IMG/VR virus record: IMGVR_UViG_3300002123_000017
Coordinates: 1-38,763 of that record
Strand: one strand, 5' to 3'
DNA length: 38,763 nt
DNA from: a virus
A program made the translations under genes and the position numbers. Below are positions 688 through 31,413 of the stretch, in pieces. Below the pieces are notes generated by a model that was not told the origin of the DNA, did not search any database, and saw only the letters and a program-made list of their open reading frames with translations. Position 1 is the first letter of the stretch. Every line of letters begins with the position of its first letter.

Positions 688-1674
688 TTGGCTCTTACTA
701 TCTCATCGGTAGCATTAGAGGAGAAGAATAAACTTTCTTCTGATGGTGTTTGGTATTTAGCTTTAAAAATTACTATCCCAGGTTTAGTTGATCCTATTCG
801 ATTAATTCGTAACAATGAAAATATAGAATGGCCTACTGGAAGTGGTATTAATTGGATAGCCTTCCCTTTTGAATTGGATGAAATAGGAGAGGAAAGCAAG
901 GGAGAAGTTCCCCAAGTTGAATTAAAAGTTTCAAATATATCTAGAGTGATGGAACAATATTTACAAGATTATGATGCTTATATTAAACGTTATGGTTTTT
1001 CCCCCGTAGAAGTAAATATTTACGTTATCAATTCCAAAAATTTGGCTAGTGCGACCCCAGAAGTAGAATATTTGTTTGAATTAAAACAGCCCAAGACAAA
1101 CTATCGGTGGGCAACGTTTGTTCTTGGTGCTTCTAATCCATTTAATAAAAGATTTCCCCAAAATAGAATATTGAAAAATCATTGTAGATTTAAGTTCAAT
1201 ACCCCAACGGGGTTGACACTATCTGGAAATCCTTATGTAGCAACCACTATCGCCATGACTGTGCCAAATAATGGAGTTTTAGTAGACTCAACTGGTGGAT
1301 TCCTCGTAGCCGGTTTTACTTCCGGTCAATGGGTGTTCATATCTGGTTTTTCAAATCCGTATAATAATTTATGGTTCAAGATACTTACTATTGATGCTAG
1401 TAATATGGAGTTGGGCCAACCAGGAGGCGTAGATTCTCTTAGGCCTGTATCGGCTGTTGCGGAATCTGCCGGACCGACGATAAGCGTGCAGGGATACTCT
1501 GGTTCGCTTTCAAACGAAACAGTTAACCAATTATGTTATTACCAAGGTGGTACGAACGAATATCCATATATGACTTGTAATAAAACACTATCAGATTGTA
1601 GGTTGCGAAATAATTCTAGTAGATTTGGTGGATTTCCTGGAGTCGGATTAGGAGGAATTAGGCTTGGAATATAA
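688..1674 (+). CDS. Minor tail protein, lambda gpL-like, with inserted beta-domain
   Basis: A 328-residue protein starting at TTG 688, directly after the gpM stop. The N-terminal ~165 residues match the gpL tail-tip family layout. The C-terminus has C-x6-C (297, 304) followed by RLRNNSSRFGGFPGVG, the gpL ending. With C166 and C283 this gives four cysteines, as in lambda gpL, where they bind an iron-sulfur cluster. In lambda the first two cysteines are close together; here about 116 residues lie between them. These contain a module at ~175-270 with the pattern D-S-x3-F-L, G-Q-W-V-x-I-S-G-F-S-N and N-N. The same module type occurs at the end of the next-but-one gene. The insert is somewhat GC-richer than its surroundings, which suggests domain acquisition. 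Confidence 0.8.
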   Translation: MALTISSVALEEKNKLSSDGVWYLALKITIPGLVDPIRLIRNNENIEWPTGSGINWIAFPFELDEIGEESKGEVPQVELKVSNISRVMEQYLQDYDAYIKRYGFSPVEVNIYVINSKNLASATPEVEYLFELKQPKTNYRWATFVLGASNPFNKRFPQNRILKNHCRFKFNTPTGLTLSGNPYVATTIAMTVPNNGVLVDSTGGFLVAGFTSGQWVFISGFSNPYNNLWFKILTIDASNMELGQPGGVDSLRPVSAVAESAGPTISVQGYSGSLSNETVNQLCYYQGGTNEYPYMTCNKTLSDCRLRNNSSRFGGFPGVGLGGIRLGI

Positions 1675-2083
1675 TATGGTAGAACTATCAAAATTTAGAG
1701 ATCTGGTAGGAATTCCTTTTGTAGATGGAGGCAGAGATCCCAAGATAGGGTTGGATTGCTGGGGGCTTTGTATGGCAGTTCATCGTAAGTTGGGAAGAGA
1801 GTTTCCGGATTTTCCTATAGCTTGTAATGCTAGTCTTGCTATAGCTTCTACAGTATCTGACGAGATAAAATCTAGATGGAAACCAGTGAAATACCCGTCT
1901 CAGGGAGATTTGATAGGATTTTCCCTAGATCCAGAACTTCCCGAGGGAGTGCAGCATTTGGGGGTATATCTTGGAAATGGGGTAGTAATTCATACCCTTC
2001 GCAAAAGAAATTCCCATTTGATTAGGCTATCTGATTCTTTTTACGCTAAGAAAATCAGGGGGTTTTACTCTTGGATAAGTTGA
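1664..2083 (+). CDS. NlpC/P60 peptidase, tail assembly protein (gpK-like)
   Basis: A 139-residue single-domain NlpC/P60 cysteine peptidase. The catalytic Cys is in GLDCWGLC (about residues 29-36) and the catalytic His lies in HLGVYLGNGVVIH (around residues 98-110). Lambda gpK has the same domain and position, and such proteins cleave peptidoglycan stem peptides or assist tail-tip assembly. The TTG start at 1664 is preferred over ATG 1676, because GGAGG at 1651-1655 sits 8 bases from TTG but 20 bases from ATG. It overlaps the gpL gene by 11 bases, which suggests translational coupling. Confidence 0.85.
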   Translation: MEYNMVELSKFRDLVGIPFVDGGRDPKIGLDCWGLCMAVHRKLGREFPDFPIACNASLAIASTVSDEIKSRWKPVKYPSQGDLIGFSLDPELPEGVQHLGVYLGNGVVIHTLRKRNSHLIRLSDSFYAKKIRGFYSWIS

Positions 2084-4215
2084 CTTTAACATTTGTAAAG
2101 AATCCTTTTGACCCCCTAAACTCTCGTGAGATTATGTTGATAGAAGAGGGACTTTCCATTCGGGAAATGGTAAAAGAGTATTATCCAGTAATTTATGAGG
2201 GATATGATATAGCTGTATCTTTGGACGGTAATATAATTTCCGATGAAAATAAATTGGATTTAATTCCAAAGGTGGGAACTTCTGTAGCTATATGTGCTGT
2301 TCCTAGGGGGGGTGATGGGAAGAATCCATTAGCTATTGTGGCTATGATTGCTTTAATGGTAGTAGCAATAGTTACGGTGCAACCGGAGTTAGCTGGATAT
2401 GCCACATCTTTGGGTATGGTGGGAGCAACAGCAGGTTCATTATCTACTGGTGGATTACTTATGGTAGGTATAGGTACCGCAGCTTTTATGACCGTAGGAG
2501 GAATGCTAATAAACTCAGTTTTCCCCGCTTCTATGCCAGATTTGTCAATGGGTGATATTAATTCTTCCGCAACATATAGTTGGATTCCTGGGGCTAATGC
2601 TTTATATGAGGGAGGTGCACTCCCTGAAATGTTTGGGACTCATAGAGTTGTCCCCCCACTTATTTCTCATTTTATTGAAATTGTTGGAAATAAACAATAT
2701 TTAAATTTATTATTCGCCGTAGCAGGTCATCAGGTAGATAGTATTTCTGATGTTCGAATAAATGAAATAGACTCTAATAATTTCGTGGGAATTTTAATAG
2801 AAACTAGATTAGGAACGATTTTTCAAGGCGTTATCCCTTTTTTCGGGGATTCTCGTTATGATCACTCTGTAAGCGTAAGGTTACAAGACCCCGTTACAAT
2901 TAATATTACTGGTTGTTCTGGTGATGGAAATACCATGACTATTACAGCTGCGAATCATGGATTTTTTAATGGACAATTTGTCGATATAGTTGACGTTGGA
3001 GGAATTGATAATATTAATAATTTTACTTTTCAAATTAGTAATGTAACTAATGATACTTTTGATATATTTTGGGAAGATAATGGTTATCTATCAATGACCG
3101 GTTCTTATTCTGGTGGCGGAACGGCTACTAATGGCTGGATTGTTCGGACTACTGATGGAAATGTGGTTGAAGGTTTGGGAGTAGGAATTGTTTTTCCTGC
3201 AGGATTATTTTATGCTAATGATGGGGGTGGATTATCTCCTCAAACAATTAGGTTATTTATAGAATACAGGGTAAGTGGTGCCGGCAATGCTTGGAATAGA
3301 TTACAAACTGCAGAATATGCCACCACTGTAATTGATACTGGTGCAAGATGGTCTGCCGGACGTTGGGATACTGTAGAGGGCATGATAGGTCTTCAATGGT
3401 TTGAAATAGAGGCTGGATCAAATGTTATAACAGACCATTATGACGGAGAGCCGTATCCATTTGATGTATGGGCAGAATATGGGGAAGGAACGCATTTTAT
3501 AGGAGAATGGCGGTGGATAATTTTCGGCAATTTTATAAATGTTGTTAGTTTAATCTATCAAAATTATGTGGAAATAACGGGGGGCCAAATAGAACCCCTA
3601 CGAAAAATGTTTTTTAAGGATCTACTAGATGCAAATTCATATGATGTTAGGATGCGTCTAGCAGTCGCCTCTCCGTCTGGTTCTAGATATGGTAATGATA
3701 TTATGTTCGAATCAATACAAGAGATAACATACGATGCTTTTAAATATCCAGGTACGGCTTTATTAGCAATTCGTGCTCTTGCTACTGATCAGCTTTCTGG
3801 CGGAATGCCTAAGATTGATTGTTTGGTGACTAGGAGCACTGTTCCTGTATGGACTGGGGCGGCATATGTTTTGAAATCGGCCTCAAACCCTGCTTGGGTA
3901 TCTTATCATTCGCTTCATAGGGCAATGCCGATAGAGGAGCCTCCTGTTGGAGCATGGGTCACCGTAAGCATGGTTGCCGGATTGGAGGGATCCAATAGTC
4001 TGCTCGACTCTGCTTCCCAGTTTCTTATTCGTTTGCCGAATTTGGTTGCCGGGCATTCCATCCAAGTGTCGGGTTTCACGAATTCAGTGAATAACGACAC
4101 TTTCTTTGTGCTAAGCGTAAGCGCAGGGACCATCACGGTAGATTATCCTCCTTATGGAATAGTAGATGAGGCTGCGGGGAATGACATAACAATAATTGAT
4201 TTGGGAGTTATTTAG
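2071..4215 (+). CDS. TipJ/gpJ-type tail-tip protein, N-terminal part of a split gene
   Basis: A 714-residue protein starting at TTG 2071, with a G-rich ribosome site at 2058-2062. Residues 1-75 look like the beta-grasp N-terminus of TipJ/gpI-type tail proteins. They are followed by a Gly/Ala-rich hydrophobic stretch (about 85-150) ending in LINSVFPASMPD, then the conserved tip core. An FCCH-like beta insert (ITAANHGFFNGQFVDIVDVG, about residues 290-365) interrupts the core. The last recognisable TipJ segment is ASNPAWVSYHSLHRA (to about 618). The final 96 residues are a foreign beta-module like that in gpL. The next ORF continues the TipJ core in the same reading frame, so one tail-tip gene appears to have been broken in two. 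Whether both pieces assemble is unknown. Confidence 0.75.
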   Translation: MDKLTLTFVKNPFDPLNSREIMLIEEGLSIREMVKEYYPVIYEGYDIAVSLDGNIISDENKLDLIPKVGTSVAICAVPRGGDGKNPLAIVAMIALMVVAIVTVQPELAGYATSLGMVGATAGSLSTGGLLMVGIGTAAFMTVGGMLINSVFPASMPDLSMGDINSSATYSWIPGANALYEGGALPEMFGTHRVVPPLISHFIEIVGNKQYLNLLFAVAGHQVDSISDVRINEIDSNNFVGILIETRLGTIFQGVIPFFGDSRYDHSVSVRLQDPVTINITGCSGDGNTMTITAANHGFFNGQFVDIVDVGGIDNINNFTFQISNVTNDTFDIFWEDNGYLSMTGSYSGGGTATNGWIVRTTDGNVVEGLGVGIVFPAGLFYANDGGGLSPQTIRLFIEYRVSGAGNAWNRLQTAEYATTVIDTGARWSAGRWDTVEGMIGLQWFEIEAGSNVITDHYDGEPYPFDVWAEYGEGTHFIGEWRWIIFGNFINVVSLIYQNYVEITGGQIEPLRKMFFKDLLDANSYDVRMRLAVASPSGSRYGNDIMFESIQEITYDAFKYPGTALLAIRALATDQLSGGMPKIDCLVTRSTVPVWTGAAYVLKSASNPAWVSYHSLHRAMPIEEPPVGAWVTVSMVAGLEGSNSLLDSASQFLIRLPNLVAGHSIQVSGFTNSVNNDTFFVLSVSAGTITVDYPPYGIVDEAAGNDITIIDLGVI

Positions 4216-4251
4216 CATGACTATTAAAGATATAAGGCGGGTTTCATCATA

Positions 4252-5940
4252 ATGGCAATCACGGGGTATAAGAGTGAAGGTGTTCCAGCATCTAGAATTG
4301 ATCTGGCTGCGTTTCAAGCATGGGCAGATTGGTGTATTGATATTTCAGAGGGAGCAGCACCTACTCCAATTCCTTTAGAATCTCATATTTATTTTGATAC
4401 TGCATTCTCTCTTCGTAAAGCATTGGATATGGTTTCCTTGAATGGAAGGGGGACTATCGTTCAATTAGGTTCCAAGTTTACGGTGATTATTGATAAAGTA
4501 GAAGAAATAGCTGTTCAGAGATTTTTATTTACTATGGGAAATATCAAAAAAGATTCTTTTGCGGAAGAATTTTTACCGATGGGCGATAGGGCAAATGCTG
4601 TAGCTATAACTTATTTTGATAGAGAAATGGATTATATTCGTCAAACAGTAGAAGTTTATTCCGACGATTTTGATACTTCTGATAAAGAAATTAATAAAAC
4701 GTCAATAATTCTTTATGGTTGTACGAGCAGATACCAAGCAACAGACCATGGTTCATTTTTAATAAAGTGTAACCGTTATGTCACGGTGACAGTCTCTTTC
4801 GATGCAGATGTAGATGCCATCGCTTGTCGTCCAGGGGATATAATAGATGTTGCTCATGACGTTCCCAATTGGGGTCAAAGTGGTAGGGTAGTATCCGCCA
4901 CTGTAAATACAATTACTCTGGATAAAGAAGTAGCAATTGATTCTTCTTTTCAATATATGGTAGGTATAAAACATATTGACGATGATTCTAGAGAAGAGAT
5001 TGAAGTTGATGCTGCTACGATGGGAACAGGAAATTACTCTGTATTACAAATTCTAACAAATTGGGTCAAAACCCCCGCATCTAACGCTTTATATTATTTT
5101 GGGAAAATTGATCAATTAACTAAGGCTGTTAGAATATTGAGGATTTCTAGATCATCTGATCAACGTAGGAAACTTTCTGGAGTAGAATACGTCCCAGAGG
5201 TTTATACAAGATCAGGATCTGTAGTTACTCCTGTTCTTCCGGCAGCGCAATCTCAAGCATGTGTTGGATTGTCTGCTACAGAAATATGGAGTGGAGGAAC
5301 AATTTCTTCAGTTTCTCTTTTATGGAGAGGTTTCGCATTAACTTGGTATGTATATAGAAGTAGTGGCGTTTCTTGGATTTTATTAGGAACTACCAATGGA
5401 TTGAATTACACCGACTCTGGTTTATCTTATGGTATGAATTACACTTTCTCCGTTTCTCCTACGGCGAATCCAAATGATGCTAATGCAGATCAAGTAACCG
5501 TAAATGTTTCTGGAGCTAACGTAAAAATTGAAGTTGTAGATTCCATAGGAATGGTAGATGGTACTATTAAAGTTCAGAATTATAATAGAAGAATAATGGA
5601 ATTACTGGAAGCTGACGATTATGGGAAGGGGGGTACGCATAAGAGGAGACTTTCAGAATCTATAGGAATTACTGATGCTATTATTAAAGTTCAGAATTAT
5701 AATAGAAGAATTTCTGAATCCCCTGGTGTATTGGATTCCTCAGTATCTGGATTCGTTCTATTTATCGTTACTAGTGATATAGCAGGAGTAACGGATTCGC
5801 TAGCAATTAAAATAATACAAGGTAGAATAATAAGTGAATCATTGGGTATACCAGATTCCTTGGTTTCTGGGCTGGTTCCGTCTACTGTCGTAGGAGATTC
5901 TATAGGAGTATCAGATTCTTTAGCAATCGTAATAATTTAG
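4252..5940 (+). CDS. TipJ/gpJ-type tail-tip protein, C-terminal part, with repeat tail
   Basis: A 562-residue protein. Its start, ITGYKSEGVPASRIDLAA, is the continuation of the TipJ core lost from the upstream ORF (compare the phage-tail_3 region of gpJ-type proteins). It includes the FTMGNIKKDSF and CRPGDIIDVAHD blocks typical of that core. Residues ~325-425 form a fibronectin-III-like domain (YRSSGVSWILLGTTNGLNYT). From ~425 to the end there are about seven copies of the ~20-residue S-[DE]-S-x-G-[IL]-x-D repeat that fills the next gene. ATG 4252 is preceded by AAGGCGGG. It is in frame with the upstream gene, separated by TAG 4213-4215 and TAA 4225-4227. It probably belongs to the distal tail tip or fibre attachment region. 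Confidence 0.7.
   Translation: MAITGYKSEGVPASRIDLAAFQAWADWCIDISEGAAPTPIPLESHIYFDTAFSLRKALDMVSLNGRGTIVQLGSKFTVIIDKVEEIAVQRFLFTMGNIKKDSFAEEFLPMGDRANAVAITYFDREMDYIRQTVEVYSDDFDTSDKEINKTSIILYGCTSRYQATDHGSFLIKCNRYVTVTVSFDADVDAIACRPGDIIDVAHDVPNWGQSGRVVSATVNTITLDKEVAIDSSFQYMVGIKHIDDDSREEIEVDAATMGTGNYSVLQILTNWVKTPASNALYYFGKIDQLTKAVRILRISRSSDQRRKLSGVEYVPEVYTRSGSVVTPVLPAAQSQACVGLSATEIWSGGTISSVSLLWRGFALTWYVYRSSGVSWILLGTTNGLNYTDSGLSYGMNYTFSVSPTANPNDANADQVTVNVSGANVKIEVVDSIGMVDGTIKVQNYNRRIMELLEADDYGKGGTHKRRLSESIGITDAIIKVQNYNRRISESPGVLDSSVSGFVLFIVTSDIAGVTDSLAIKIIQGRIISESLGIPDSLVSGLVPSTVVGDSIGVSDSLAIVII
5565..5711 (+). repeat. Perfect 30-bp direct repeat inside the repeat-coding region
   Basis: Bases 5565-5594 and 5682-5711 are identical over 30 bases (beginning TATTAAAGTTCAGAATTATA) and 117 bases, or 39 codons, apart. 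Both encode IKVQNYNRR. Most neighbouring repeat units are conserved only as protein, so this identity points to a recent duplication or recombination within the array. Confidence 0.9.
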
Positions 5941-6046: not shown

Positions 6047-9000
6047 ATGGCTACCGAGCGTATCTATCCTGCAAGTGATGTAACAACCAACTGGAATGGA
6101 TGGTCTGCCCCTCCGCATTGGTCGCGTGTAGACGATGCTTATGGATCGGAAACGGAGGCGGATGGAGGGCTTGCCGGGGACAACAACTCCGTAGAAGAAT
6201 TCACCATGGCGAATGTATCCGTCATGGGGGCATCAGATACCGCAACCGGGATAGGTATTTATATATGGTCGAAAAGCGAAAGCAGCACAGAGTCGATAGA
6301 TGTTCAATATTCCATCGACAACGGGTCTAACTGGTCCTCCGTTGTAAACGTAGTAGTTAATCAAACGAGTTACGCCTATGGAATAGCGTCGTGGTCCGGC
6401 CTGTCTCTGACTCAATCGCAGATCAACGCGATGAACATACGGCTTACATGCCCGAATGAGAATGTCGATTGGGTCTATACCTCCGCAGTTTCGGTTCTGG
6501 TGACTTATACGGCGGGCGGAACTAATTTTACCAGAGAATTAGCAAATAGTTTGGGGATCTCTGATGTTCTATATAGACAGTTAGTACGGAGATATGAAAA
6601 TATAGAATCCATCGGAGTTCCAGACTCTATCCTTTGTTCCCTGTCCTTTATTCGTCCGATTGGGGATAGTTTTGGATTAGTAGACTCCAGAGATATTGTA
6701 AAGTCAATGATTCGTAGGCCCACGGAAGTGTTGGAATTGGGAGATTACGAAAGAATTATTAGACAAATAGTCAGATACATATCTGATAGTGAGAATATCT
6801 CAGATTCTTCTATTCTTGTTCATCTTATCAATCGTTATCTTTCTGATTCATTAGGTTTGGCAGATTCTAATAATCGTTATATCACCCTTCGTAAATATCT
6901 TACTGATACTGTTGGAATAACGGATGCTGAAATAGTTATTAATTCCATCGTTCGTTATCTTTCTGATATTTTGGGATTATCTGATATACAAAGTAAAATG
7001 ATTGGCAAGATAGTTGCAGAATCAACTGGTATTATGGATACTTTGAGTAAGATTGGTAATATGGTTAGAGTTCTATCTGAATCAGAGGGAATGACAGATT
7101 CAATAAACCGTATTCTTCAGAAAGTTGCCCAACTATCTGATTCTATTGGAATAGTAGATTATCAATTAATAATTAAATCCCTATCTCGAATTATTTCTGA
7201 AAATGAAGAAATAGGCGATTCTTCCCTTCGGTATTTAAACATGATTCGTGACTCTTTTGATTCTATGGGGATTTCCGATCATTCTATTACAGTAATTGCA
7301 TTAATTAGGACCCTATCAGAATCTTTGGGAATAACTGATTCAGAAGTTTGGGCACTCCTTCGTAGTAGGGTTATTTCTGATACCACTAGTGCATTTGATT
7401 TTCAAGCAAAAACTATTGGTAAGGTTCTTTCAGATATTTTGGGGGTTTCTGATTCTATAGCAAGGGCCTCTTTAGCAAGCAGATATATTTCAGATATTCT
7501 TGGATTATCTGATGTTGTTTCTAGGATATTGGTAAAACGGCTGACTCAACCAGATGTTATTGGGTTAGTAGATGTATTTTATGAAACAGAAATAAATCTA
7601 TTTGTTGCAATAGTGGCAGAGGCGATTGGTATTACTGACGCCCAAGTTAAATCCTCTACTTTGGGAAGAATAGTTTCTGATGCTTTTAATCTTTATGATG
7701 TATCTTTCCGAACGGTTTTGTATAGTCGTGCTTTCTTGGAAATAGAGGGAATTAGTGATTATAGCTCTAGATTAATGGAGGCGGTGCGTTATTTATCTGA
7801 TTCTGGAGGAACGTCTGATTATTTGAATAGAGTAATGGGGCACATTCGGTTGGAGTCTGATTCTATAGCAATGACAGATAATTTAACACATATTAAGTCC
7901 CTTTTAAAAAATATATCTGATTCTATTGGACTTACTGATTCCCAATCAAATATTATTCATTTGGTCCGTGCGGTTTATGATTCTTTGACTATAAACGATA
8001 CGTTGGATCGTCATATATCTTTTGTTCGTTCCTATTCAGAATCGATTGAAATTTTAGACATTTTCTATGGTATAGAAGTTAATTTGCTAGTTTCTGAAAT
8101 TTCAGATGTTATTGGATTAGTAGACGATAAATCTCAAGCCTTCATTAAAACTATATTGATTAGTAATTTATTAGGAATTTCTGATTCTAACATTAAATCT
8201 TTTTTAAAACAAATTTCCGATACAATGGGATTGTCAGATACCATTCAACGTCATTTGACGATTCAACGAATTCTTTTTGATACTGAGGGTCTTTCGGATA
8301 CTCTGATCAAATCAATTGCTAAGACTCTATCGGAAGCATTGGGAATAATTGATTCGACTGTTCGTTATCGTACTCTTCAGAAAATTCTTTCTGAATCTCT
8401 GGATTTGTCAGATTCTCAGTATAGGATAATTGTAAAAATATTTTCCTTATATGAAAATTTAGGGTTGACAGATGCAAGAGTAAAATTATTGGCTAAGACG
8501 ATTGGGGAATCCTTAAATTTAAATGATTACCAGTTACGATCCTTAAGTTTCATTAGAGCTATGATGGAAGGATTAGAATTATCCGATTCCTATGTAAGAG
8601 CATTGAAGGTAAAAAGAGAGTCATTGGAAGAAGTTGGTCTTGTAGATATAAATATTCAATATCTTGCATTAATTGTATCTAGAATTCTGTCTGAGCCTGT
8701 TGGAATTACGGATTCCTACCAAGCCATATTTTATGTTGCTAGGATCATAGCCGAATCCTTAGATTTGTCTGACGAGCAACTTAGGATTTTGGATGTTAAC
8801 AGAATAGTATCAGAATCTTTATCTTTTGTAGACATAGCTCCTAGAACGGTTAATTTGACTAGAATGTCCGTAGACTCTGTTGCCTTAGCCGATTCTCTAT
8901 TATCTTTGGTTATGAAATTACGTTATTTATCAGAATCCTTCGAATTGACGGATTCTCAATATTATCAGTTGGAAATGATAAGGGAATTGGCAGAAACGGA

Positions 9001-9478
9001 GGGGATTTCTGATTTCCTTCTTAGATCTATTTCTGTTAATAGATTTGTGGCAGATTCTACTGGAGTTACAGATAGTTTGAGAAGAGTTCTTGAAATACTT
9101 CGTAGTCAAACGGATTCTGTTGGAATTACGGATACTGCGGAGTGGAAAAAGATTCTTGTTTTGATATTAACGGAATCTATTTCTCTAAATGATTCTGAAT
9201 TTAGAACGATGCTTTATTGGATTCATCAGTATGACGTAGTAGGACTCGCTGATGGTCAATTCCGGTCAGTTAGTTATCAAAGATTTTTATCTGATTTGCT
9301 TAATGTACTAGATAGGTTAGGATTAGACCAAGTAATAGCAAAAATAATTCGTGAAAAGTTGTATGTTTCACTTGCAGTTTATAAACGGTTCTTGATGGAG
9401 ATTGATGCTCTTAATCCCCAAGTAAGTATAAACGTTCAGGATAGGAGAGTTGAATTAAATATCCTCAGAATGAAGTAA
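6047..9478 (+). CDS. Giant ~20-residue-repeat tail fibre-like protein
   Basis: An 1143-residue protein. Residues 1-159 form a GC-richer beta-sandwich-like head (ASDVTTNWNGWSAPP; IGIYIWSKSES) of a kind seen in phage structural proteins. From about 163 to 1090 the chain is almost wholly made of roughly 47 units of 20 residues (range 18-24). The unit consensus is [LIV]-S-[DE]-S-x-G-[IL]-x-D-[S] followed by a variable stretch ending in R/K and an aromatic or aliphatic residue, for example RYLSDSLGLADSNNRYITLR. No cysteine pairs or catalytic motifs occur in the array. The last ~50 residues leave the repeat pattern. Position after TipJ suggests a long distal tail fibre or stalk. The fold is not known to me; a fibrous or solenoid shape is inference. 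Confidence 0.65.
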   Translation: MATERIYPASDVTTNWNGWSAPPHWSRVDDAYGSETEADGGLAGDNNSVEEFTMANVSVMGASDTATGIGIYIWSKSESSTESIDVQYSIDNGSNWSSVVNVVVNQTSYAYGIASWSGLSLTQSQINAMNIRLTCPNENVDWVYTSAVSVLVTYTAGGTNFTRELANSLGISDVLYRQLVRRYENIESIGVPDSILCSLSFIRPIGDSFGLVDSRDIVKSMIRRPTEVLELGDYERIIRQIVRYISDSENISDSSILVHLINRYLSDSLGLADSNNRYITLRKYLTDTVGITDAEIVINSIVRYLSDILGLSDIQSKMIGKIVAESTGIMDTLSKIGNMVRVLSESEGMTDSINRILQKVAQLSDSIGIVDYQLIIKSLSRIISENEEIGDSSLRYLNMIRDSFDSMGISDHSITVIALIRTLSESLGITDSEVWALLRSRVISDTTSAFDFQAKTIGKVLSDILGVSDSIARASLASRYISDILGLSDVVSRILVKRLTQPDVIGLVDVFYETEINLFVAIVAEAIGITDAQVKSSTLGRIVSDAFNLYDVSFRTVLYSRAFLEIEGISDYSSRLMEAVRYLSDSGGTSDYLNRVMGHIRLESDSIAMTDNLTHIKSLLKNISDSIGLTDSQSNIIHLVRAVYDSLTINDTLDRHISFVRSYSESIEILDIFYGIEVNLLVSEISDVIGLVDDKSQAFIKTILISNLLGISDSNIKSFLKQISDTMGLSDTIQRHLTIQRILFDTEGLSDTLIKSIAKTLSEALGIIDSTVRYRTLQKILSESLDLSDSQYRIIVKIFSLYENLGLTDARVKLLAKTIGESLNLNDYQLRSLSFIRAMMEGLELSDSYVRALKVKRESLEEVGLVDINIQYLALIVSRILSEPVGITDSYQAIFYVARIIAESLDLSDEQLRILDVNRIVSESLSFVDIAPRTVNLTRMSVDSVALADSLLSLVMKLRYLSESFELTDSQYYQLEMIRELAETEGISDFLLRSISVNRFVADSTGVTDSLRRVLEILRSQTDSVGITDTAEWKKILVLILTESISLNDSEFRTMLYWIHQYDVVGLADGQFRSVSYQRFLSDLLNVLDRLGLDQVIAKIIREKLYVSLAVYKRFLMEIDALNPQVSINVQDRRVELNILRMK
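6533..9330 (+). repeat. Array of about 47 degenerate 60-bp coding repeats
   Basis: The DNA shows a 60-base rhythm, with TCTGA or TCAGA recurring at the same phase for long stretches. It corresponds to the 20-residue protein repeat. Individual units differ widely in DNA sequence while S, D/E, G and D positions are kept. This indicates an old array under protein-level selection and not a fresh satellite. Unit lengths of 18, 20, 22 and 24 residues differ by two residues, so insertions and deletions come in pairs of codons. A shorter set of seven units ends the preceding gene (about 5524-5937). Confidence 0.85.
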
Positions 9479-9488
9479 GGAGGGAAAT

Positions 9489-9776
9489 ATGAGCATAAAA
9501 GAGTTTACAAATGGGGATACAGTTTGGCTTCAAGCTACCTTTAGAACAAACTCAAAAGTTTTATTTGATCCTACTTCTACTTGGGGAAATATTTGGGATT
9601 CCTCCTCTAATCATATAGGTATATCTGCTTTCACCAAAAGTGTCACAGGAGTTTACGTTTATGGTTGGCAAACAGATCCTAGCAGTCATGCCAATGGGGA
9701 TGTTGTATTTGATGCTTACGGATATTACGGAGGGAAGATATATGTCCATCGTGGAACCCTTTTCCGTTTGGTGTAA
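9489..9776 (+). CDS. Small putative structural protein
   Basis: A 95-residue protein behind a strong AAGGAGGG site. The composition (many Gly, Tyr, Trp, Thr, Ser; alternating polar and hydrophobic residues; ending VHRGTLFRLV) fits a small beta-rich virion protein. Its place between the repeat fibre and another structural gene supports this. I recognise no family. It begins SIKEFTNGDTVWLQATF, reminiscent of small beta-domains found near phage fibre genes, but this is weak. It could be a fibre-associated or assembly protein. Confidence 0.5.
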   Translation: MSIKEFTNGDTVWLQATFRTNSKVLFDPTSTWGNIWDSSSNHIGISAFTKSVTGVYVYGWQTDPSSHANGDVVFDAYGYYGGKIYVHRGTLFRLV

Positions 9777-9877
9777 TTTTTCATAGAAAGGGAGAACCAT
9801 AAACGATATAATAAAAAGGATTCTAACTGGGAACCAAAATGTTCCGAACACCCCATGTAGAGAAGGAGGAAGGGAAA

Positions 9878-10429
9878 ATGAATGAGCAATTAAGAAGGGA
9901 TTTAGATGCAAAACTGGCGGCGTTTCTCAAAGAAACTGAAGGAGATCTTCCCATTGAGAAAATGGGAATTCTCGGGTGTGTTCGTCACCGTTTGTATGGC
10001 CCTGATGGTACACTGAAGCAGGAAGGTCATAAGTTTAACCTAGTAAACTCTATTGGGGATAAGTATCTCTCTGTCTATTTGTCGGGGGCAGGGGTGTTGC
10101 CGGGATCTATGTGGGCAGAGCTTGGTGTTAATACCACCGCTCCGGTGAAGGCTGGAACTGGTTTGGGGACTTTAATTGCTACTTCGTCCCTAGCAACTTC
10201 CGCTTCCTATCCGCAGAATGTCAACTCATTCGGTACGGGTTCCGGTGAGTGGACAATTTGGCGGTTCTCTTGGGGCGCGGGCGTAGCAACCAACGGGTCT
10301 ATCGGAGAAGTGGGAATGCGGACTCAGGCTGGTTCCTTTGTAGCCCATGCGTTGGTGGCTCCGAACGTGAACAAGGCTGCTGGCGATACGCTGCAGATCG
10401 ACTGGGGCTGGAAATTTTTAGGGGCATAA
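9878..10429 (+). CDS. Putative tail/fibre-associated structural protein
   Basis: A 183-residue protein. The ATG at 9878 is chosen because AAGGAGG precedes it by a suitable distance; an in-frame ATG at 9839 has no such site. The N-terminus is helical and charged (NEQLRRDLDAKLAAFLKETE). It is followed by YGPDGTLKQEGHKFNLVNS and a Gly/Ala/Thr-rich beta region ending in LQIDWGWKFLGA. The phrase W-x-I-W-R-F-S-W and the late W-G-W are like those of small phage particle proteins encoded near fibres. The second half is noticeably GC-richer than the repeat gene upstream. The exact role is unknown; last gene of the structural block before the mobile endonuclease. Confidence 0.5.
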   Translation: MNEQLRRDLDAKLAAFLKETEGDLPIEKMGILGCVRHRLYGPDGTLKQEGHKFNLVNSIGDKYLSVYLSGAGVLPGSMWAELGVNTTAPVKAGTGLGTLIATSSLATSASYPQNVNSFGTGSGEWTIWRFSWGAGVATNGSIGEVGMRTQAGSFVAHALVAPNVNKAAGDTLQIDWGWKFLGA

Positions 10430-10511: not shown

Positions 10512-11192
10512 ATGATTCTTGTTCCCCCTAGAACAACCGATATGACTGGGACCCAATTCTTTCGTTTGACTGTATTAGGTCTTTCTAGAATTGATAAAGA
10601 CAAACGGGGGACTACTTCTTTTTGGGAATGCCTCTGCGAATGCGGAAATTATCATATTGTTGCTAAAGATAAACTCAAACTAACAAAAAGTTGTGGATGT
10701 TTGAAAAGGGAGATTATCAAAGCCGGGGCAAATTTCAAACATGGTTTTTGTAAGGATGGTCAGATAACTCCGGAATATAGTTGTTGGTCAGGAATGAAGG
10801 ATCGTTGCTATTGTGAAACCAATCGCAAGTATCCTCGTTACGGTGGAAGAGGAATTACCATTTGCGATGAATGGAGATATAATTTTGAGGCTTTTCTTGC
10901 ATATATGGGACCCTGTAATGGGAAAATAATTGATAGAATTGAAGCAGACGGTAACTATGAACCGGGTAATTGCCGTTGGGTAACTCCTGCAATATCCAAT
11001 AGAAATTATTCAACTAGAAATCGTAATTATACCCATAATGGCGAAACAAAGTGTTTGAAGGATTGGGCAGCTCATTTTGGCATAAACTATGCTACCCTCT
11101 GGCAACGAATTAAAGATGGCCTAAGTTTTGAGGAAGCCATAGCCCATCGCCTTAGAGAAAAAATTGTCGTTAGTCAGGTTATTTCTATTTAA
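10512..11192 (+). CDS. HNH-type mobile endonuclease
   Basis: A 226-residue protein with an N-terminal Cys-rich part (ECLCECGNYHIVAK ... SCGCLKRE, about residues 44-75). A central domain follows with SGMKDRCY, GRGITICDEWRYNFEAF, IDRIEADGNYEPGNCRWVTP and SNRN. That arrangement is typical of HNH-like endonucleases common in phages as free-standing homing or intron-associated enzymes. The C-terminal ~45 residues (LKDWAAHFGINYATLWQRIK) resemble a helix-turn-helix DNA-binding domain. It sits at the end of the structural operon and its stop overlaps the stop of the convergent glycosyltransferase gene. Expression is probably damped by the start-site hairpin. Confidence 0.75.
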   Translation: MILVPPRTTDMTGTQFFRLTVLGLSRIDKDKRGTTSFWECLCECGNYHIVAKDKLKLTKSCGCLKREIIKAGANFKHGFCKDGQITPEYSCWSGMKDRCYCETNRKYPRYGGRGITICDEWRYNFEAFLAYMGPCNGKIIDRIEADGNYEPGNCRWVTPAISNRNYSTRNRNYTHNGETKCLKDWAAHFGINYATLWQRIKDGLSFEEAIAHRLREKIVVSQVISI

Positions 11193-14158
11193 ACGTATTT
11201 CCCTTCTCTCAAAGACATTTGATGTTTAAGAATTCCACCAACAATTTGAGAAGCTATTTCAGAATTAGGGAATCTAGTTTTAACATCTCGTAATTGAATT
11301 CCATCTAGAATAAAAGTAAATATCATATCTTGCCCCAATCCTAGTAAAGCGTTAGCAGTTGAATATAATTCAATCGCATCTAACATAATAGGATCAGCGG
11401 GATTTGGTAAAAATTTAGTTTCAAATATATGCTTAGCCCTCATAGCCCACTCCCGACAGAAATCATCTGGAGGAGTCCCAGGGGGAAAACGATTCATTCT
11501 ATCTTTTATGATATGAATACAATCCCTCATGAATAGGAATTTCATCAAATCCCGATCAGGGCATTCTTTGTAATCTCGAAGAAGCAAATCAATATTTCTG
11601 AGGAATCTTTCATTTCTGATTTTATCTGTTAAATACCCGTCATGACCAATCCAAAAGTCTGGCATAATAATTCCCAAACCAAATCCCTTGTTCAATTCTA
11701 ATTCGGGATGTTCATGAATCAAGCCAAAGAATTTGGCCCCCGTATTGTTTCTAAATAAGCGTGTAGGTAGGTCGGGCTTAAAAGGATTGGGGGGGTCTAC
11801 GGACAAATGATGTTGTTGTATGCCATATCCGTTAAAGGGGTTCGCCCGAAGATATTTATTAACGTTTTCTGGATTGAGTAGAACTTCATCAGAGTCAATC
11901 CAAAGTATCCAATCTCCCTTTGCATCTTTGATGCTTAGGTTTCTGGCGGCTCCGAATCCTTCCTTGAGAGGGTCAATTCCTTTTAAAATCTTGGCCCCAT
12001 ATTTTTGAGCAATTTCTTTGGTGCTATCATTAGTTTTCGGATCTACTGCAATAATGATTTCGTCGGCTATTTTAGAAACAGATTTCAAACATCTATGAAG
12101 CATATCTTCTGCATTATATGCTATCATACAAACTGAGAGAGTTTCCTTTGGAGCTTGCCATACCATCTTTCTTTCAAAATTAACACGGTTAGTCGGAATG
12201 CTAGAATCCTTAGTATATGAGATAAAGTGGTGCCCAATAACTTCTCCAGAATTGATTCTTCCCGTAGATCTAAAGAAAACTTTGATATCTTTTTTCTCAC
12301 TAAACATATCCAAAATGTCGTTCATTTCGTAATGGCGAACGTGGCATCTATGGGGGAAGGTATAGTATGATAAATATTCCCAAGGTCCATATGGAACTGT
12401 CAAGTAAATAGTTCCCCCTTCTTTGCATAAAGTTTCTAATTGATCAATAAGATGATAGGGGTCAATAACATGTTCTAATACTTCATTGCAAAATACTAAG
12501 TCAAAAGTCCCCCCGCCTATTTCTAATATTTTTTCTATAGGATGAGAGGTCATTTCATCTGTAGATATGAATTTAATATTTTTATGCTCAGAATATTTTT
12601 CTTTGCATTTGTTAGCAGTATCAATAGTTTTTCTAGTTATATCTAGCCCCAAAAATTGACTATCTGGGAAAAGATTTGCCATTCTAATGGTTTGATGCCC
12701 AATCCAGCAGCCGTAATCAAGGACTTTTTCATACGGACCAGAAGTTTCCAAAAACTCTTTCATAATCAACCATCGTGGCTCACTTCCGCTAGTTTCAAAG
12801 TGACTAACTTTGGCCCCTTCATGCTTTGTTCCCTCTATAGGAGCATCTACTTTTTTATATTGTTCTCTATATGTTTCAGGAGATTCCATAAAAGAGAAAT
12901 TATCATGGATATATTTAACATCATTCTTTACCAAATTGAGATTATGGCATTCTCTTTCAAAATGTACGGCAACCCCATTTTCTTTTGCTTCTATAATATT
13001 ACACATTTCAATATCAGAATTTTTAAAGAAATGCTTATACAATCTAGCGGGGTTACTTGATTTTTTTCTCATAATTTTATCAGATATATTTAACAATCGA
13101 TCTGCTACAGGCCCCCAAATCAATGTTTTCCCGTGTTCCATACCCGCTATGGACATGTTTTTAGTAATAGAGGGCTTATTTAAAAGTTCTTCAATAACTT
13201 TAATAAATTCATTTTGGCAAGCCTCCGTAGAAGCTAGTCCAAAATCAGTAGTATTGATAAATTTAGTGGCACCAGGATGAAGAGTTTCTACCAATGCGGC
13301 GGTTGGAGTCGTAATGAAAGGAAGTCCGCAAGCTTGGGCTTCGATAGCACTAATGCAAGAAATCTCATCAAACTCTGTGGGGTAAACGTAAGCCCAAGAA
13401 CGAGAATATAAATCATATAATTGAGCTTTTGTTAAAGATCCCAGTAATTGAACGTTGGGAAGTGCTTTGCACCTTTCCCAAAGATGTTCGTAATATGCTC
13501 TTATCCCCGGAACGGTATTGTCATAGTGGGCTACCATAAGTTTTACAGAGATTTCTTTCTTGAGAAATTTTTCCATAATTCCATTTTCTTTGACAAGATT
13601 TTCCAGACCTCGTTCTGGTCTAGCACAGTAGACCATTTGCCCTAAACTTCTGACGGAATTGAGTCCGTCAGGAATCAAGGAAACGTCTATCCCATTTCTG
13701 ATCACTTCAATTGCTTCTTCGGGGATTTCATAAATTTCTTTATATTGATTCTTTTGAAATTGAGACATAAGAAGAACGCGATCAACTTGAGTTAAAATTC
13801 CCCTCATATTTGGGGCAGTTCTTTTGAGAGCGAGGTCATGGCACCATAAATAACAAGTTTTAGCATTATGGGGGGTTTGAAGAATACCAAAATCTCTGGA
13901 TACGATGAGCATATCTATATCTGAATGAGACATTAATTCTTGACCTTGTTGTAGGGGGATGTACATTACCCCCCTGATTCCCATTGGAGCATCGCAAGGA
14001 CTCAGAACTACCACCCTATTTCTTCCGCCAAAAGCATCTTTTTTAGAAGCAAAGGATTCTGCTAATTGAATAGCGGCGGTTTCTGATCCCCCTAATGAGC
14101 TTTTGGCCAAGGTGTTGCCATCGTGTTTCATTCCGGGGGAAACAATGATAATATTCAT
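11189..14158 (-). CDS. Three-domain GT4 glycosyltransferase - methyltransferase - GT2 glycosyltransferase
   Basis: A 989-residue fusion. The N-terminal ~370 residues are a GT-B fold GT4-type glycosyltransferase, with LGGSETAAIQLAESFA near the start and the E-x7-E region in EFDEISCISAIEAQACG. Residues ~425-650 are a SAM-dependent methyltransferase (VLDYGCWIGHQTIRM; FDLVFCNEVLEHV). From ~673 a GT2 domain follows (LSVCMIAYNAEDMLHRCL; DWILWIDSDEVL with the D-x-D metal motif) plus a helical C-terminus. ATG 14158 is chosen over TTG 14164 because AGGAG lies 7 bases before it. Its start overlaps the upstream stop (TGATG). It would act on sugar acceptors in the cytoplasm. The target (DNA, virion protein or host glycan) cannot be told. 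Confidence 0.8.
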   Translation of the reverse strand: MNIIIVSPGMKHDGNTLAKSSLGGSETAAIQLAESFASKKDAFGGRNRVVVLSPCDAPMGIRGVMYIPLQQGQELMSHSDIDMLIVSRDFGILQTPHNAKTCYLWCHDLALKRTAPNMRGILTQVDRVLLMSQFQKNQYKEIYEIPEEAIEVIRNGIDVSLIPDGLNSVRSLGQMVYCARPERGLENLVKENGIMEKFLKKEISVKLMVAHYDNTVPGIRAYYEHLWERCKALPNVQLLGSLTKAQLYDLYSRSWAYVYPTEFDEISCISAIEAQACGLPFITTPTAALVETLHPGATKFINTTDFGLASTEACQNEFIKVIEELLNKPSITKNMSIAGMEHGKTLIWGPVADRLLNISDKIMRKKSSNPARLYKHFFKNSDIEMCNIIEAKENGVAVHFERECHNLNLVKNDVKYIHDNFSFMESPETYREQYKKVDAPIEGTKHEGAKVSHFETSGSEPRWLIMKEFLETSGPYEKVLDYGCWIGHQTIRMANLFPDSQFLGLDITRKTIDTANKCKEKYSEHKNIKFISTDEMTSHPIEKILEIGGGTFDLVFCNEVLEHVIDPYHLIDQLETLCKEGGTIYLTVPYGPWEYLSYYTFPHRCHVRHYEMNDILDMFSEKKDIKVFFRSTGRINSGEVIGHHFISYTKDSSIPTNRVNFERKMVWQAPKETLSVCMIAYNAEDMLHRCLKSVSKIADEIIIAVDPKTNDSTKEIAQKYGAKILKGIDPLKEGFGAARNLSIKDAKGDWILWIDSDEVLLNPENVNKYLRANPFNGYGIQQHHLSVDPPNPFKPDLPTRLFRNNTGAKFFGLIHEHPELELNKGFGLGIIMPDFWIGHDGYLTDKIRNERFLRNIDLLLRDYKECPDRDLMKFLFMRDCIHIIKDRMNRFPPGTPPDDFCREWAMRAKHIFETKFLPNPADPIMLDAIELYSTANALLGLGQDMIFTFILDGIQLRDVKTRFPNSEIASQIVGGILKHQMSLREGKYV

Positions 14159-14394
14159 CAGCAATCTCCTATGATAGTACGAATATTCTTTTTATTTGTT
14201 CGAATAATCTCAATAAGAGCATCTATTATGAAATATGGACTAGCAACCATTGGTTTGGCGGTATCTTGGGGAACTGCCGAATGTATAGGGCATTTATACC
14301 ATCTGGTTCGGGGACAAGTACATTTTATTTTACTCTCATTGCAAACACAAGAAAGATTTCTACAAATTGAGCACTCGCTATCAGGAGTTTTCAT
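14158..14394 (-). CDS. Small Cys-rich protein
   Basis: A 78-residue protein with a cysteine-rich first half (CSICRNLSCVC, then CTCPRTRWYKCPIH, residues 8-38), very likely one or two zinc-binding knuckles. A more hydrophobic helix-prone tail follows (FIIDALIEIIR). The ATG overlaps the stop of the 48-residue gene upstream by ATGA, and its own stop overlaps the glycosyltransferase start, so the four genes 14685 to 11189 look translationally coupled. Family not recognised. It may bind nucleic acid or act as a small adaptor. Confidence 0.55.
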   Translation of the reverse strand: MKTPDSECSICRNLSCVCNESKIKCTCPRTRWYKCPIHSAVPQDTAKPMVASPYFIIDALIEIIRTNKKNIRTIIGDC

Positions 14395-27888: not shown

Positions 27889-30800
27889 TCATACTAAAAA
27901 ATCCCAGGATTGGTTAATTTTTCCTATTTTTATATCAGATATTAATGGGACAATGATCCAAGGATTGTTCGCTAAAACATCTTTAGTCATCACTTTTTTA
28001 GTGGTTTCTATTACATGATCTATTTCGTTTGGGTTAGTATCTATAATTATAGAATCATGGATTTGTCCTATTAATTTAGATTTCCATTTTTCTTCTTTTG
28101 ATATTTCATTTATTTTAATTATTGATTCTAAAAGTACGTGGAATGCTGTGCCTTGAATTACGGAATTTATAATTTCATTTTTGGTTAAAAATCCCCTTCG
28201 TCGGAAGCCATGCATCATTTCAACATATCCGTTTTGTTGGTATGATTTTATTAGTCCATCTTGAAATTTTTTAATCCCACGATATTTTAGCCAAAATTCT
28301 CGCTCTGCTTTTTGAACTCTCATTATAGGTAGATCATGGTATCCTCTGCTAATTAAATCTGCATGAATATTTTTATAATAACTGCCGTAAAAGAGGGCAA
28401 AAACCATGGCGTTCTTGGCATCGAATCTCATTATTTTTGCATCGAATCCCTTTAGTTGTAAAAAATCTGCCCACTCTTGATGAATATCCGCTCCATCTAT
28501 ACGTTCTTTCATTAATACAGGGTCTTTGGAATAGCAAGCTAAAATGCCGACTTCATGCCCCCCATAATCAGCCTCAGCTAATAGGTTTCCTGGAGAGGGA
28601 ATTATTCCATTTCTTACCATAGTCATAGATTCTTTATCTCTTTTGGGAATGTTTTGCATATTGGGGGAGTCCATAGAACTTCTGCCTGTTCTTACTAAAT
28701 GTAAATTAGAATTAGGATGTAATTTTTTATTGACTTGTAAACCTAAAATTCCATCAATATAAGTAGTCTTCAATTTATCCAATTTTCTTTTTTTAACCAA
28801 ATCTTTTGCGAAGGGTATATCCAAACTTTCCACAACGTCTTTATCTACGGAGTCCCCACCACCCTCCGTTTTTTTGATGGATTTTACTCCTAAGAATTCA
28901 AACAAAAGTTTTTTCATATCATCAGAAGAAGTTAATTTTATTTCTCTTCCTGTTTTAGATTTAAATAATTTTGCTTCTGGAGAGCGAAGTAATTGTTTTT
29001 CTAGGAAATCTAGTCTTTTTTCTAATTTTATTTGGGTATCTTGATAATATTCTACGTTTACTGAGATCCCTTCCATTTCCATATCAGAAAAAGCAAGAAC
29101 TCCTTTATGAAATAAATCGTAGGCTTTAGAAGCGGCGAGGGATTCCTTATTCCCCTTATCCATGAAATCCCATTGCCGTTCCGCCAATCTCATCGTGAAA
29201 TAAGCATCTAATCCGTTATATTTCAATAGCTCATTTAATGGGCACTTCTGCATAGTATTAAATTTAGTTCCCGGAAGGGCCTTTTTGAATTTAGAAATAT
29301 CCCCTCCGTATTCATACCCCCAATTTATAAACGTTTGAAAATCTAGCCCTGTAAATCCTGCTCGTTCATCTACGATATGAGAACAAACCATTGTATCCCA
29401 ATACCATCCTTTTGGCTCTTCTCCAATTATGATTTTACTCCACGGATGCTCCATCTGAATATTCTGGGCTACTTTTAATATTTCTGGGTCGGAGAGTACC
29501 CCTCGCCATGCCTTATTCAACGCTTCTAACTGTCCTGATTGCCACGCTCCGGGGTAGGAGTAGGGCCAGGCATAGGCTATGTCCTCCCCGTAGATAGCGA
29601 CAGCCGTAGACACAATAGAGTGGCCGGGATAGTAGGGACGGAGGCCAGTAGTTTCATAATCAAATGCTATCGTTGGTTTTTGTTCTTTAATCGTTTTGAG
29701 AATATCTAAAATTTCATCTGTATTGGTTAGACATTTTATCTTTTGGGAATAATCAATTTCTTCTATTTCTGGTAAATTTGAAGTTATTTGTTCCATTGCC
29801 CATTGGAGGTCTAATTTGAAAATGTTCTCTGCGTCAGGATTTCTGATAACGAAAGAGGGATGGTATAGTGGGATAACCCAAGCCTTCGTTTGAACATCAG
29901 GAATGCAAAGTTTTCTCCATCTCCCAATAGATAAATTTGTTGAAATAGGTTGAGTCCTATTCATGAAAAACGCCTCTACTGCTTTTGCGCCAAAAAGTAG
30001 TATATACTTCGGTTGAAATTGTTGTATCGCTGCTCGCCAGTTAGGTTCGCAAGCTTTGATTTCCCGTGTAGTCGGAGTTCGGTTGCTCCCCTTCTCGTTG
30101 GTTGGCCGGCAATTATGATGAATTACTCTATTTGCTATAAAACTATTGTCCTCTTCTACTTCTATGCAAGTTAAAGACATTCTTTTTCCTATAGGAATTT
30201 TTTCTATAGAAACTATTTCTACTTCGGTGAATTGATATTCTTGATTATGATTCTTTATTAATCTTTCTATTGGGGAAATAGGATTTTTAGAGGAAACTCG
30301 GAGTAATTCATAATTATAATTTTTAGCTAGTATGTTTTTTTTCGTTTGATCATTTTTAACTGATTTTTGTCCGTTCCTATCCGGATTATCTACTTCCACT
30401 AGCAAATTATACTTTGGCAAAAAGAAATCATAATTTAATGTTTCAATGGCAAATTGAGAAATGAATTGTATTTTTTTATCGGATAAATAATTTGCTAAAG
30501 ACCCCTCTCCAAATCCTATTGTGATAGGAGATATACTAGATAATTTATTTTCAGATTCTTTAATTTTGGCCCATTTTATTCTGCCTTTTAGCTTAGCTTC
30601 CTTAGTTACTTTCCCCCCCGTCATCTTCCCCCAAACGCCCAGTTTAGCCGATCTTCTTACTTTTTCATGGGCTTTCTCCCTAAGTTTTTCTCCATATTTA
30701 TCCTCTAAGTATTTACTTTCGCAGATTAAAGAACAAATATTTTCCCCATAAGAATTAGTTTTAAAAAAAATACCCCCACAAATTATACATTTTTCTCCTA

Positions 30801-31413
30801 TGGCTATTATTCTATCTCCTTTATTTAATTGACGTGCATAAACCCAATTTTCTTTATTGTCTATTTTAGATAAAAATCTATGTGAAGAGGTAACAACAAA
30901 TTCTTTCAAACTTCTATTTTTATAAGGAGAATTGATCCTCCCCACTTTAATTTTGTAAACTTCTTCAGTAATTCTTTTAAGGTGCTTGGGAAGATCTTGA
31001 ATTCTAGATATTACCTTTCTAAATCTTCCTTTATGGGTTAATACTAAATCCCCCACCTTAACTTTAGATACAGGTTTATACCCATCTATAGTAAATATAG
31101 GAACTTGATGATAAACAAAACACGCTACGGCATTAGTTTTTCTGAAATCTCTATCTAGATCGTACCCCATAATCCTAAAGCATTTTCTAAGAAAATGGCC
31201 AGTTTCTCCTATAAATTGATTGTTCAGTTGATCTTCTCGCTCACCACTAGCTTCCCCCAATATGAAGGTTTTAAGTTTTCCTTCACCAGTGGGGGGAATA
31301 TTTGGGGATAGGGTACGATTTTTCAGCCCACATGCGTCACAACCTACGGCCCCTCGGGGGGTTTTTGGTTGGGCTGCTTTAGCAGGAGTTGGTATATCAA
31401 AGAACCCTCGCAT
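27889..31413 (-). CDS. Uracil-DNA glycosylase - family A DNA polymerase fusion with intein
   Basis: An 1174-residue precursor. Residues 1-97 plus 435-545 form a family 4/5-type uracil-DNA glycosylase: CDAC (25-28), ILGEASGERED, NAVA|CRPTNEKGSNRTP, C455, and LYHPS (516-520). Residues 98-434 are an intein. Then comes the 3'-5' exonuclease (TIAFDYETTG, NIQMEH, YNGLDAYFT) and the family A polymerase: RTGRSSMDSPNMQNIP, motif A EADYGGHEVGILAC, motif B RFDAKNAMVFALFYG, motif C IGQIHDSIIID. After splicing the product would be 837 residues. No 5' nuclease domain is present; the FEN gene supplies it. It is the probable replicative polymerase, with in-built uracil removal. Confidence 0.9.
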   Translation of the reverse strand: MRGFFDIPTPAKAAQPKTPRGAVGCDACGLKNRTLSPNIPPTGEGKLKTFILGEASGEREDQLNNQFIGETGHFLRKCFRIMGYDLDRDFRKTNAVACFVYHQVPIFTIDGYKPVSKVKVGDLVLTHKGRFRKVISRIQDLPKHLKRITEEVYKIKVGRINSPYKNRSLKEFVVTSSHRFLSKIDNKENWVYARQLNKGDRIIAIGEKCIICGGIFFKTNSYGENICSLICESKYLEDKYGEKLREKAHEKVRRSAKLGVWGKMTGGKVTKEAKLKGRIKWAKIKESENKLSSISPITIGFGEGSLANYLSDKKIQFISQFAIETLNYDFFLPKYNLLVEVDNPDRNGQKSVKNDQTKKNILAKNYNYELLRVSSKNPISPIERLIKNHNQEYQFTEVEIVSIEKIPIGKRMSLTCIEVEEDNSFIANRVIHHNCRPTNEKGSNRTPTTREIKACEPNWRAAIQQFQPKYILLFGAKAVEAFFMNRTQPISTNLSIGRWRKLCIPDVQTKAWVIPLYHPSFVIRNPDAENIFKLDLQWAMEQITSNLPEIEEIDYSQKIKCLTNTDEILDILKTIKEQKPTIAFDYETTGLRPYYPGHSIVSTAVAIYGEDIAYAWPYSYPGAWQSGQLEALNKAWRGVLSDPEILKVAQNIQMEHPWSKIIIGEEPKGWYWDTMVCSHIVDERAGFTGLDFQTFINWGYEYGGDISKFKKALPGTKFNTMQKCPLNELLKYNGLDAYFTMRLAERQWDFMDKGNKESLAASKAYDLFHKGVLAFSDMEMEGISVNVEYYQDTQIKLEKRLDFLEKQLLRSPEAKLFKSKTGREIKLTSSDDMKKLLFEFLGVKSIKKTEGGGDSVDKDVVESLDIPFAKDLVKKRKLDKLKTTYIDGILGLQVNKKLHPNSNLHLVRTGRSSMDSPNMQNIPKRDKESMTMVRNGIIPSPGNLLAEADYGGHEVGILACYSKDPVLMKERIDGADIHQEWADFLQLKGFDAKIMRFDAKNAMVFALFYGSYYKNIHADLISRGYHDLPIMRVQKAEREFWLKYRGIKKFQDGLIKSYQQNGYVEMMHGFRRRGFLTKNEIINSVIQGTAFHVLLESIIKINEISKEEKWKSKLIGQIHDSIIIDTNPNEIDHVIETTKKVMTKDVLANNPWIIVPLISDIKIGKINQSWDFLV
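30112..31122 (-). mobile_element. Intein with Vsr-like nuclease domain in the UDG domain
   Basis: 337 residues, C98 to N434 of the precursor, followed by Cys+1 (C435). Block A is CFVYHQVPIFTIDGYKPV, with VKVGDLVLTHKG. Block B is VVTSSHRF with the T-x-x-H pattern. Block F/G is SLTCIEVEEDNSFIANRVI with the terminal HHN. In between lies a Cys-rich knuckle (CIICGG; CSLICES) and a PD-(D/E)XK/Vsr-type nuclease part, YDFFLPKYNLLVEVD with a later LLRVSS strand. Splicing joins TNAVA to CRPTNEKG. Vsr-like nucleases in inteins are known from phage and metagenomic genes. Confidence 0.88.

Follow-up and report, generated by a model that had tools for sequence, protein, structure and literature searches.

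The array protein and its neighbours

The window analysed here is the whole of a 38,763-nucleotide stretch of viral DNA (IMG/VR record IMGVR_UViG_3300002123_000017, positions 1–38,763, one strand), and its subject is a plus-strand gene (6047..9478) encoding a protein of 1143 amino acids that consists largely of short tandem units and that we propose as a tail-tip stalk. This array protein begins with an N-terminal part (amino acids 1–163; 6047..6535, +) ending in GGTNFTR, continues with 47 tandem units (amino acids 164–1099; 6536..9343, +) and closes with 44 residues downstream of the units (9344..9475, +). Most of the units (39) are 20 residues long; five have 18 and three have 22. The original prediction of about 47 units, mostly of 20 residues and changing in length by steps of two, is thus borne out, and the coordinates it gave for the array (6533–9330) were right to within about 15 bases. 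Among other viral loci carrying the repeat (described below), L102 and L128 have a sequence similar to the N-terminal part, and the motif GGT-x-[FY]-T-[RQ] stands directly ahead of the array in L057, L124 and L128 as well.

The units were located with an iterated protein profile that gave 43 anchors at spacings of 18, 20, 22, 40 and 62 residues; the count of 47 takes the two spacings of 40 as two units each and that of 62 as three. The pattern of the units is [LIV]-S-[DE]-S-[LIV]-G-[IL]-[ST]-D, after which a variable stretch of ten, eight or twelve residues completes the unit. A regular expression for the core finds 30 sites in the array protein, whereas 200 residue shuffles yielded 0.5 on average and never more than 3, and self-identity within amino acids 161–1100 peaks at lags 20, 40 and 60. 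At the acidic and Gly positions, predicted to be fixed, Asp stands at position 10 in 47 of 47 units (partly by selection, as the units were located via this core), Asp or Glu at position 4 in 45 and Gly at position 7 in 30. The final residue is Arg or Lys in 38 units. The eight units that depart from 20 residues do so only between Asp10 and the last residue, where they have 8 or 12 residues and not 10.

The unit is conserved as protein, and synonymous codons differ between units, so that selection acts on the protein: Asp10 is encoded by GAT 40 times and by GAC seven times, and when the first 12 residues of the units are compared, identity is 0.46 at the first codon position, 0.59 at the second and 0.37 at the third. 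On average, units are 25% identical in amino acid sequence, and this value does not drop with distance across lags 1–6. The array is therefore old, with no recent expansion indicated.

Upstream of the array, all on the plus strand, lie genes for a minor tail protein L-like product (688..1674; Pfam and PHROG matches), a gpK-like NlpC/P60 protein (1664..2083; Pfam match) and a lambda J-like tail tip protein. The latter corresponds to two open reading frames (ORFs), of which the first (2071..4215) matches positions 76–366 of the PHROG_31 profile (E 6e-47) and the second, TipJ-related one (4252..5940) positions 552–944 (E 5e-57). The L-like and NlpC/P60 genes adjoin these ORFs. Unlike lambda J, the window version is split, and the C-terminus of its second ORF is made of the 20-residue repeat found in the array, with at least five units (5524..5937, +). 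As the array gene comes after this split J-like gene with the same C-terminal repeat, the array protein is likely to be a tail-tip stalk. Downstream of the array follow a protein of 95 amino acids (9489..9776, +) and one of 196 amino acids, here called the partner (9839..10429, +), which matches PHROG_5417 over residues 65–189 (E 1.3e-7).

Five loci from the viral_contigs collection represent the same virus (99.9–100% identity), and the J split and the unit spacing are unchanged in them where covered. The gap between the two J-like ORFs (2071–5940) is 36 bases, and the split is kept in the same-virus loci that cover it. The repeat units that close the second J-like ORF include a direct duplication of 57 bp (5538–5594 and 5655–5711, 86% identical).

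Relatives of the repeat and its partner in viruses and archaea

PHROG_12240 matches the array protein in four stretches (E 7e-19), and five places in the search of the window; it also matches 15 of 34 other array proteins, and PHROG_22415 matches five of the 34. The library lists the function of both families as unknown and attaches to them no fold, unit definition, archaeal relatives or partner. No named repeat family of known fold emerged to contradict the original prediction: searches of Pfam, NCBIfam and PDB sequences gave no credible family. For the LED repeat (PF20854), the relative L087 reached 20 bits against a cut-off of 59, and the window array was absent from the matches. TFIIB, RAD24, ribosomal S5 and helix-turn-helix (HTH) Pfam models matched the repeat proteins of relatives, some above the curated cut-off, and were set aside as no single stretch passed alone.

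Cultured phages gave nothing at E 1e-5 in tblastn with the full array protein, nothing with the repeat consensus and nothing at E 0.01 with the arrays of L132 and L087; five records found with a 196-residue part of the array (E 0.7–9) were taken as chance. A Shewanella phage Y11 protein matched the L123 query in sense, weakly (E 0.01). Matches of this query to Mycobacterium phage Aminay gp26 and Natrialba phage PhiCh1 ORF34 were in opposite frames and were rejected; the sense proteins carry other repeats. A literature search by repeat motif strings, PHROG names and topic listed no paper on the repeat, though a prior description is possible.

Viral relatives were sought in viral_contigs as two motif copies 20 residues apart, which returned at least 120 stretches. 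After L017, L072 and L097, from the same virus as the window, were left out, 116 loci remained, and a three-unit profile confirmed the array in 78 of them; the loci are not dereplicated (L044, L067 and L088, for example, share array length and gap). In the nearest other relative seen, L128, the order is as in the window, namely array, a protein of 96 amino acids (46% identical over 93 amino acids to the 95-residue protein at the same place here) and partner (64% identical over 163). Its array has 14 units, counted on sequence, against 47 in the window, so the length of the stalk would vary at one and the same position. The terminal regions of the array proteins are diverse: 63 N-terminal parts fall into 40 clusters and 75 C-terminal parts into 50 (some non-member repeats included), which makes the unit look like an exchangeable stalk. 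In four other loci (L073, L075, L111 and L130) acidic repeats of GDSLGLSEGDS-like or LNELDG-like type mimic the motif and are probably a different kind of sequence.

Relatives of the partner occur in 45 of the 78 viral array loci, always on the same strand as the array (45 of 45), within 100 bp of it in 16 and within 3 kb in 44. Where at least 2.5 kb is available on each side of the array, the partner is present in 14 of 15 loci. A looser count (46 of 91) had taken in loci with a different Gly/Asp/Ser repeat and is superseded by these profile-filtered figures. The reverse search, starting from the partner, found an array in 30 of 58 loci and in 14 of the 41 that do not overlap the earlier ones; its seed was drawn from array loci, which favours finding arrays, and a looser unit scan gave no arrays in shuffled ORFs. 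In cultured phages the partner has no match at E 1e-3.

The repeat is not confined to viruses. The unit profile matches 28 of 300 genomes in the phylum of a Candidatus Nitrosotalea assembly, against four of 889 in three comparison phyla, those of a Sedimentisphaerales genome (2/294), of Chromatiaceae (0/299) and of Streptomyces (2/296). The profile includes two rows from L134 and one from L133, so that one match among the 28 and one among the 2/294 are built in, which leaves 27 and one as independent. The array-bearing archaeal open frames span 873–4232 amino acids among the matches listed, and giant proteins such as that of the Candidatus Nitrosotalea locus L134 (Laminin_G_3, MG2) carry the 20-residue unit in tandem as in the window. 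Unlike the window array, the archaeal giants are chromosomal, reach about 4,200 amino acids and sometimes consist of near-identical units, which suggests recent expansion in some of them. A strict pattern search of genome_contigs gave five loci. The Nitrosopumilus one (L137) has no regular-expression match, yet its genome matches the unit profile; those of Chromatiaceae and Streptomyces were rejected, with no repeat frame seen and no unit profile match in their genomes.

The partner accompanies the repeat in archaea too, if more loosely. Of the 28 array-positive genomes in the Nitrosotalea phylum, 13 have it, as do 10 of the 272 array-negative ones (Fisher P 1.3e-9, uncorrected for kinship). 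Ten loci from the 13 genomes with both were read; the three genomes left out, G048, G078 and G171, show weaker partner matches. In seven of the ten the distance between partner and array is 22 bp to 12.7 kb, and in five of these seven the two share a strand. To the eye, the genes beside the partner and array loci resemble housekeeping genes, no family search having been made. In all ten archaeal partners the N-terminus includes a hydrophobic stretch, with a mean hydropathy of 1.76 or more across 17 residues, and hence the partner domain probably acts outside the cell in archaea; of the 53 viral partners, not one has an N-terminal value as high as 1.6. If the inference holds, the partner would be carried on virus particles.

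Two-residue alternation and the backbone of the array

Residues within the unit alternate between small or polar ones and hydrophobic or charged ones. In the 20-residue units of the window the fraction of small or polar residues is 0.58 at odd and 0.105 at even positions, and only five of the 184,756 partitions of the 20 positions match or beat this split. The alternation at positions 4–10 is partly fixed by the core used to locate the units; positions 11–20, outside that core, give about 0.45 against 0.16 on their own (means of per-position values). The alternation ranks in the top 1% for 26 of 28 arrays tested, these being the window, 26 others and L111, a probable non-member with mostly 16-residue units. 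Among 12 archaeal loci examined, all nine arrays with at least five distinct 20-residue units were likewise in the top 1%.

Unit lengths obey a related near-rule. With strict anchors, 432 distinct units of the viral loci divide into 397 of even and 35 of odd length, with 81 of 18 residues against eight of 19. Because the motif search called for a pair of units spaced by 20 residues, the search itself accounts for part of the excess of length 20, though not for that of 18 over 19. Two arrays, L079 and L115, hold 15 of the 20 units of 21 residues, and L111 contributes 26 of 28 units of 16 residues in a unit-length tally. Since residues alternate and even lengths hold the in/out phase across 936 residues, a beta backbone is the simplest reading of the sequence pattern and the most likely one.

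Several named repeat types differ from this pattern. Gly makes up 4.7% of the array and lags 20, 40 and 60 dominate, unlike a collagen-like repeat with Gly at every third residue. A coiled-coil heptad is equally absent, lag 7 lying outside the 12 highest self-identity lags and the alternation being one of two residues. Lag 14 does rank seventh; it equals 20 minus the Asp4–Asp10 spacing of 6. RTX calcium-binding repeats are GGxGxDxUx nonapeptides, whereas the period here is 20, and Pfam gave no RTX match at E up to 1. The triple-stranded beta-helix of the T4 gp5 type has an eight-residue repeat, and lag 8 is not among the 12 highest lags of the array. Lag 15, the period of the triple beta-spiral (a candidate architecture discussed below), lies outside them as well. 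The view that the repeat is unlike named fibre types stands for collagen-like and coiled-coil repeats and cannot be maintained for beta-helices, in that the sequence pattern points to beta structure and the better AlphaFold2 model is a beta-solenoid, possibly a program artefact.

That model, the best of five for seven window units, had a mean predicted local distance difference test score (pLDDT) of 69, and the other four 22–44; nine units of L123 gave a pLDDT of 58 and no fold. Both models are unreliable. AlphaFold2 reportedly produces unrealistic beta-solenoids when given repeat sequences (PMC11795689), and for this reason we do not rely on structure matches to solenoids.

A proposed adjustable stalk and its alternatives

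We propose, with a probability of about 0.58, that the array forms a long extracellular stalk of beta structure, with a recurrent small partner and, in this virus, a tail-tip placement. The functions of the array and the partner are inferred. The array protein would join the J-like tip by its N-terminal part, by the shared repeats or by both, and project from the tail as a fibre that, like the tail tip, is probably a trimer and whose length depends on the number of units. The partner may work with the array as a cap, as a distal or receptor-contacting subunit or as an assembly factor. In archaea the repeat and the partner would build a cell-surface filament. A tail scaffold of tunable length, as in the original prediction, is partly supported, by the shorter array of L128 and by the adjoining L-, K- and J-like tip genes; its presence on the virion and any binding to a receptor are presumed. 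That prediction did not include the units that close the J-like gene ahead of the array, the gene for the partner or the relatives in archaea.

Several results weigh against this proposal. The partner is lacking from the available stretch in 33 of the 78 viral array loci (most of them short on one side), and present in eight of the 38 other pattern loci, in which the profile confirmed no array, in some beside two or three units. Three of the ten archaeal loci have no array in the stretch read, one of these having listed arrays on other contigs. J-like sequences found no match in L128, and relatives of the J-, K- and L-like genes are rare in other array loci. Head and neck families outnumber tail ones among the families listed near the arrays of other phages (51 upstream ORFs, giving the first 25 of 31 families, 36 ORFs and ten proteins), and the array need therefore not be a tail fibre everywhere. 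The low confidence of both AlphaFold2 runs also counts against the beta-structured stalk.

How the chain folds is a choice chiefly between two beta architectures. A single-chain beta-solenoid would add one rung of about 0.48 nm per unit, making the 47 units a rod of about 23 nm. The all-beta AlphaFold2 model with its period of 20 argues for it, as do VIA-align matches with Z 9.7–12.6 among the 50 listed, mostly to beta-solenoids, and a predicted protein of an uncultured Caudovirales phage with a TMq of 0.80. The array has no match by sequence profile to proteins with the fold of that low-confidence model (pectate lyases, pentapeptide repeats, SufB/SufD), Asp10 would be stacked on every rung, and the argument depends on one model of five from a program with the reported weakness for such folds; we hold the solenoid to be a tentative candidate short of even odds. 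The other architecture is an interwound homotrimeric beta fibre of the triple beta-spiral or triple-stranded beta-helix type, in which a unit adds more than one strand spacing and the array could reach about 80 nm with the rise of the triple beta-spiral. It would suit the two-residue alternation, the mostly even unit lengths and attachment to a J-like tip, the J tip being trimeric in lambda-like phages, but the period of 20 departs from the 15 or 8 of such fibres, and we regard it as no more and no less probable than the solenoid.

Placement and secondary structure could also be read otherwise. The array might form a fibre at the head or neck or a whisker, or might serve in assembly or in a tape-like role, and would then not be a tail-tip adsorption fibre; in favour of this, head, neck, portal and protease families lie near arrays in several other phages. 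PHROG_2, which we take to be the large terminase, was found in 12 of 30 contigs searched, with the array upstream of it in two and 5–8 kb downstream in three; in six, however, the array lies 12–28 kb downstream and in one 58 kb. In the window the array comes after the L-, K- and J-like genes and has its repeat in common with the J-like one, and we consider a head or neck component unlikely here. An alpha-helical repeat, suggested by the resemblance of the GITD..R pattern to a helix-turn-helix, would accord with the HTH, TFIIB and RAD24 matches and with designed-helical-repeat ones, some above Pfam curated cut-offs. The Pfam matches among them have no stretch that passes alone, insertions and deletions come mostly in steps of two and not of 3–4, the alternation spans the unit and neither model contains a helix, which makes a helical array very improbable. 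Among the PHROG_2 matches, those on the L115 and L091 contigs contain two TGA and one TAG codon in frame, as a pseudogene, an intron or stop-codon recoding would give.

Beyond the stalk proposed for this virus, the array and its partner may belong to an unnamed two-protein extracellular system, in which an adjustable beta-repeat stalk of an unsolved fold type works with a dedicated cap, tip or assembly partner, and which is found on the particles of tailed viruses and on the cells of ammonia-oxidising archaea and was passed between virus and cell. We offer this tentatively, leaning slightly to the doubtful side. If it is true, one widespread unnamed repeat would account for stalk-like proteins of many uncultured phages and for the giant proteins of relatives of Nitrosotalea and Nitrosopumilus. 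The linked partner gene provides a direct experimental handle, and the near-rule of even unit lengths sharply constrains any fibre fold that may be proposed. The wider family with its partner is a more interesting result than the array itself.

Other parts of the window hold genes of a different kind. A minus-strand gene (27889–31413) encodes a protein of 1174 amino acids that combines a uracil-DNA glycosylase domain, an intein/Hint region and a family A DNA polymerase, and another on the same strand (11189–14164) a 991-residue fusion of a group 1 glycosyltransferase, a methyltransferase and a family 2 glycosyltransferase. Between the latter and the partner gene, a plus-strand ORF of 226 amino acids (10512–11192) resembles an HNH-type homing endonuclease, as judged by eye only.

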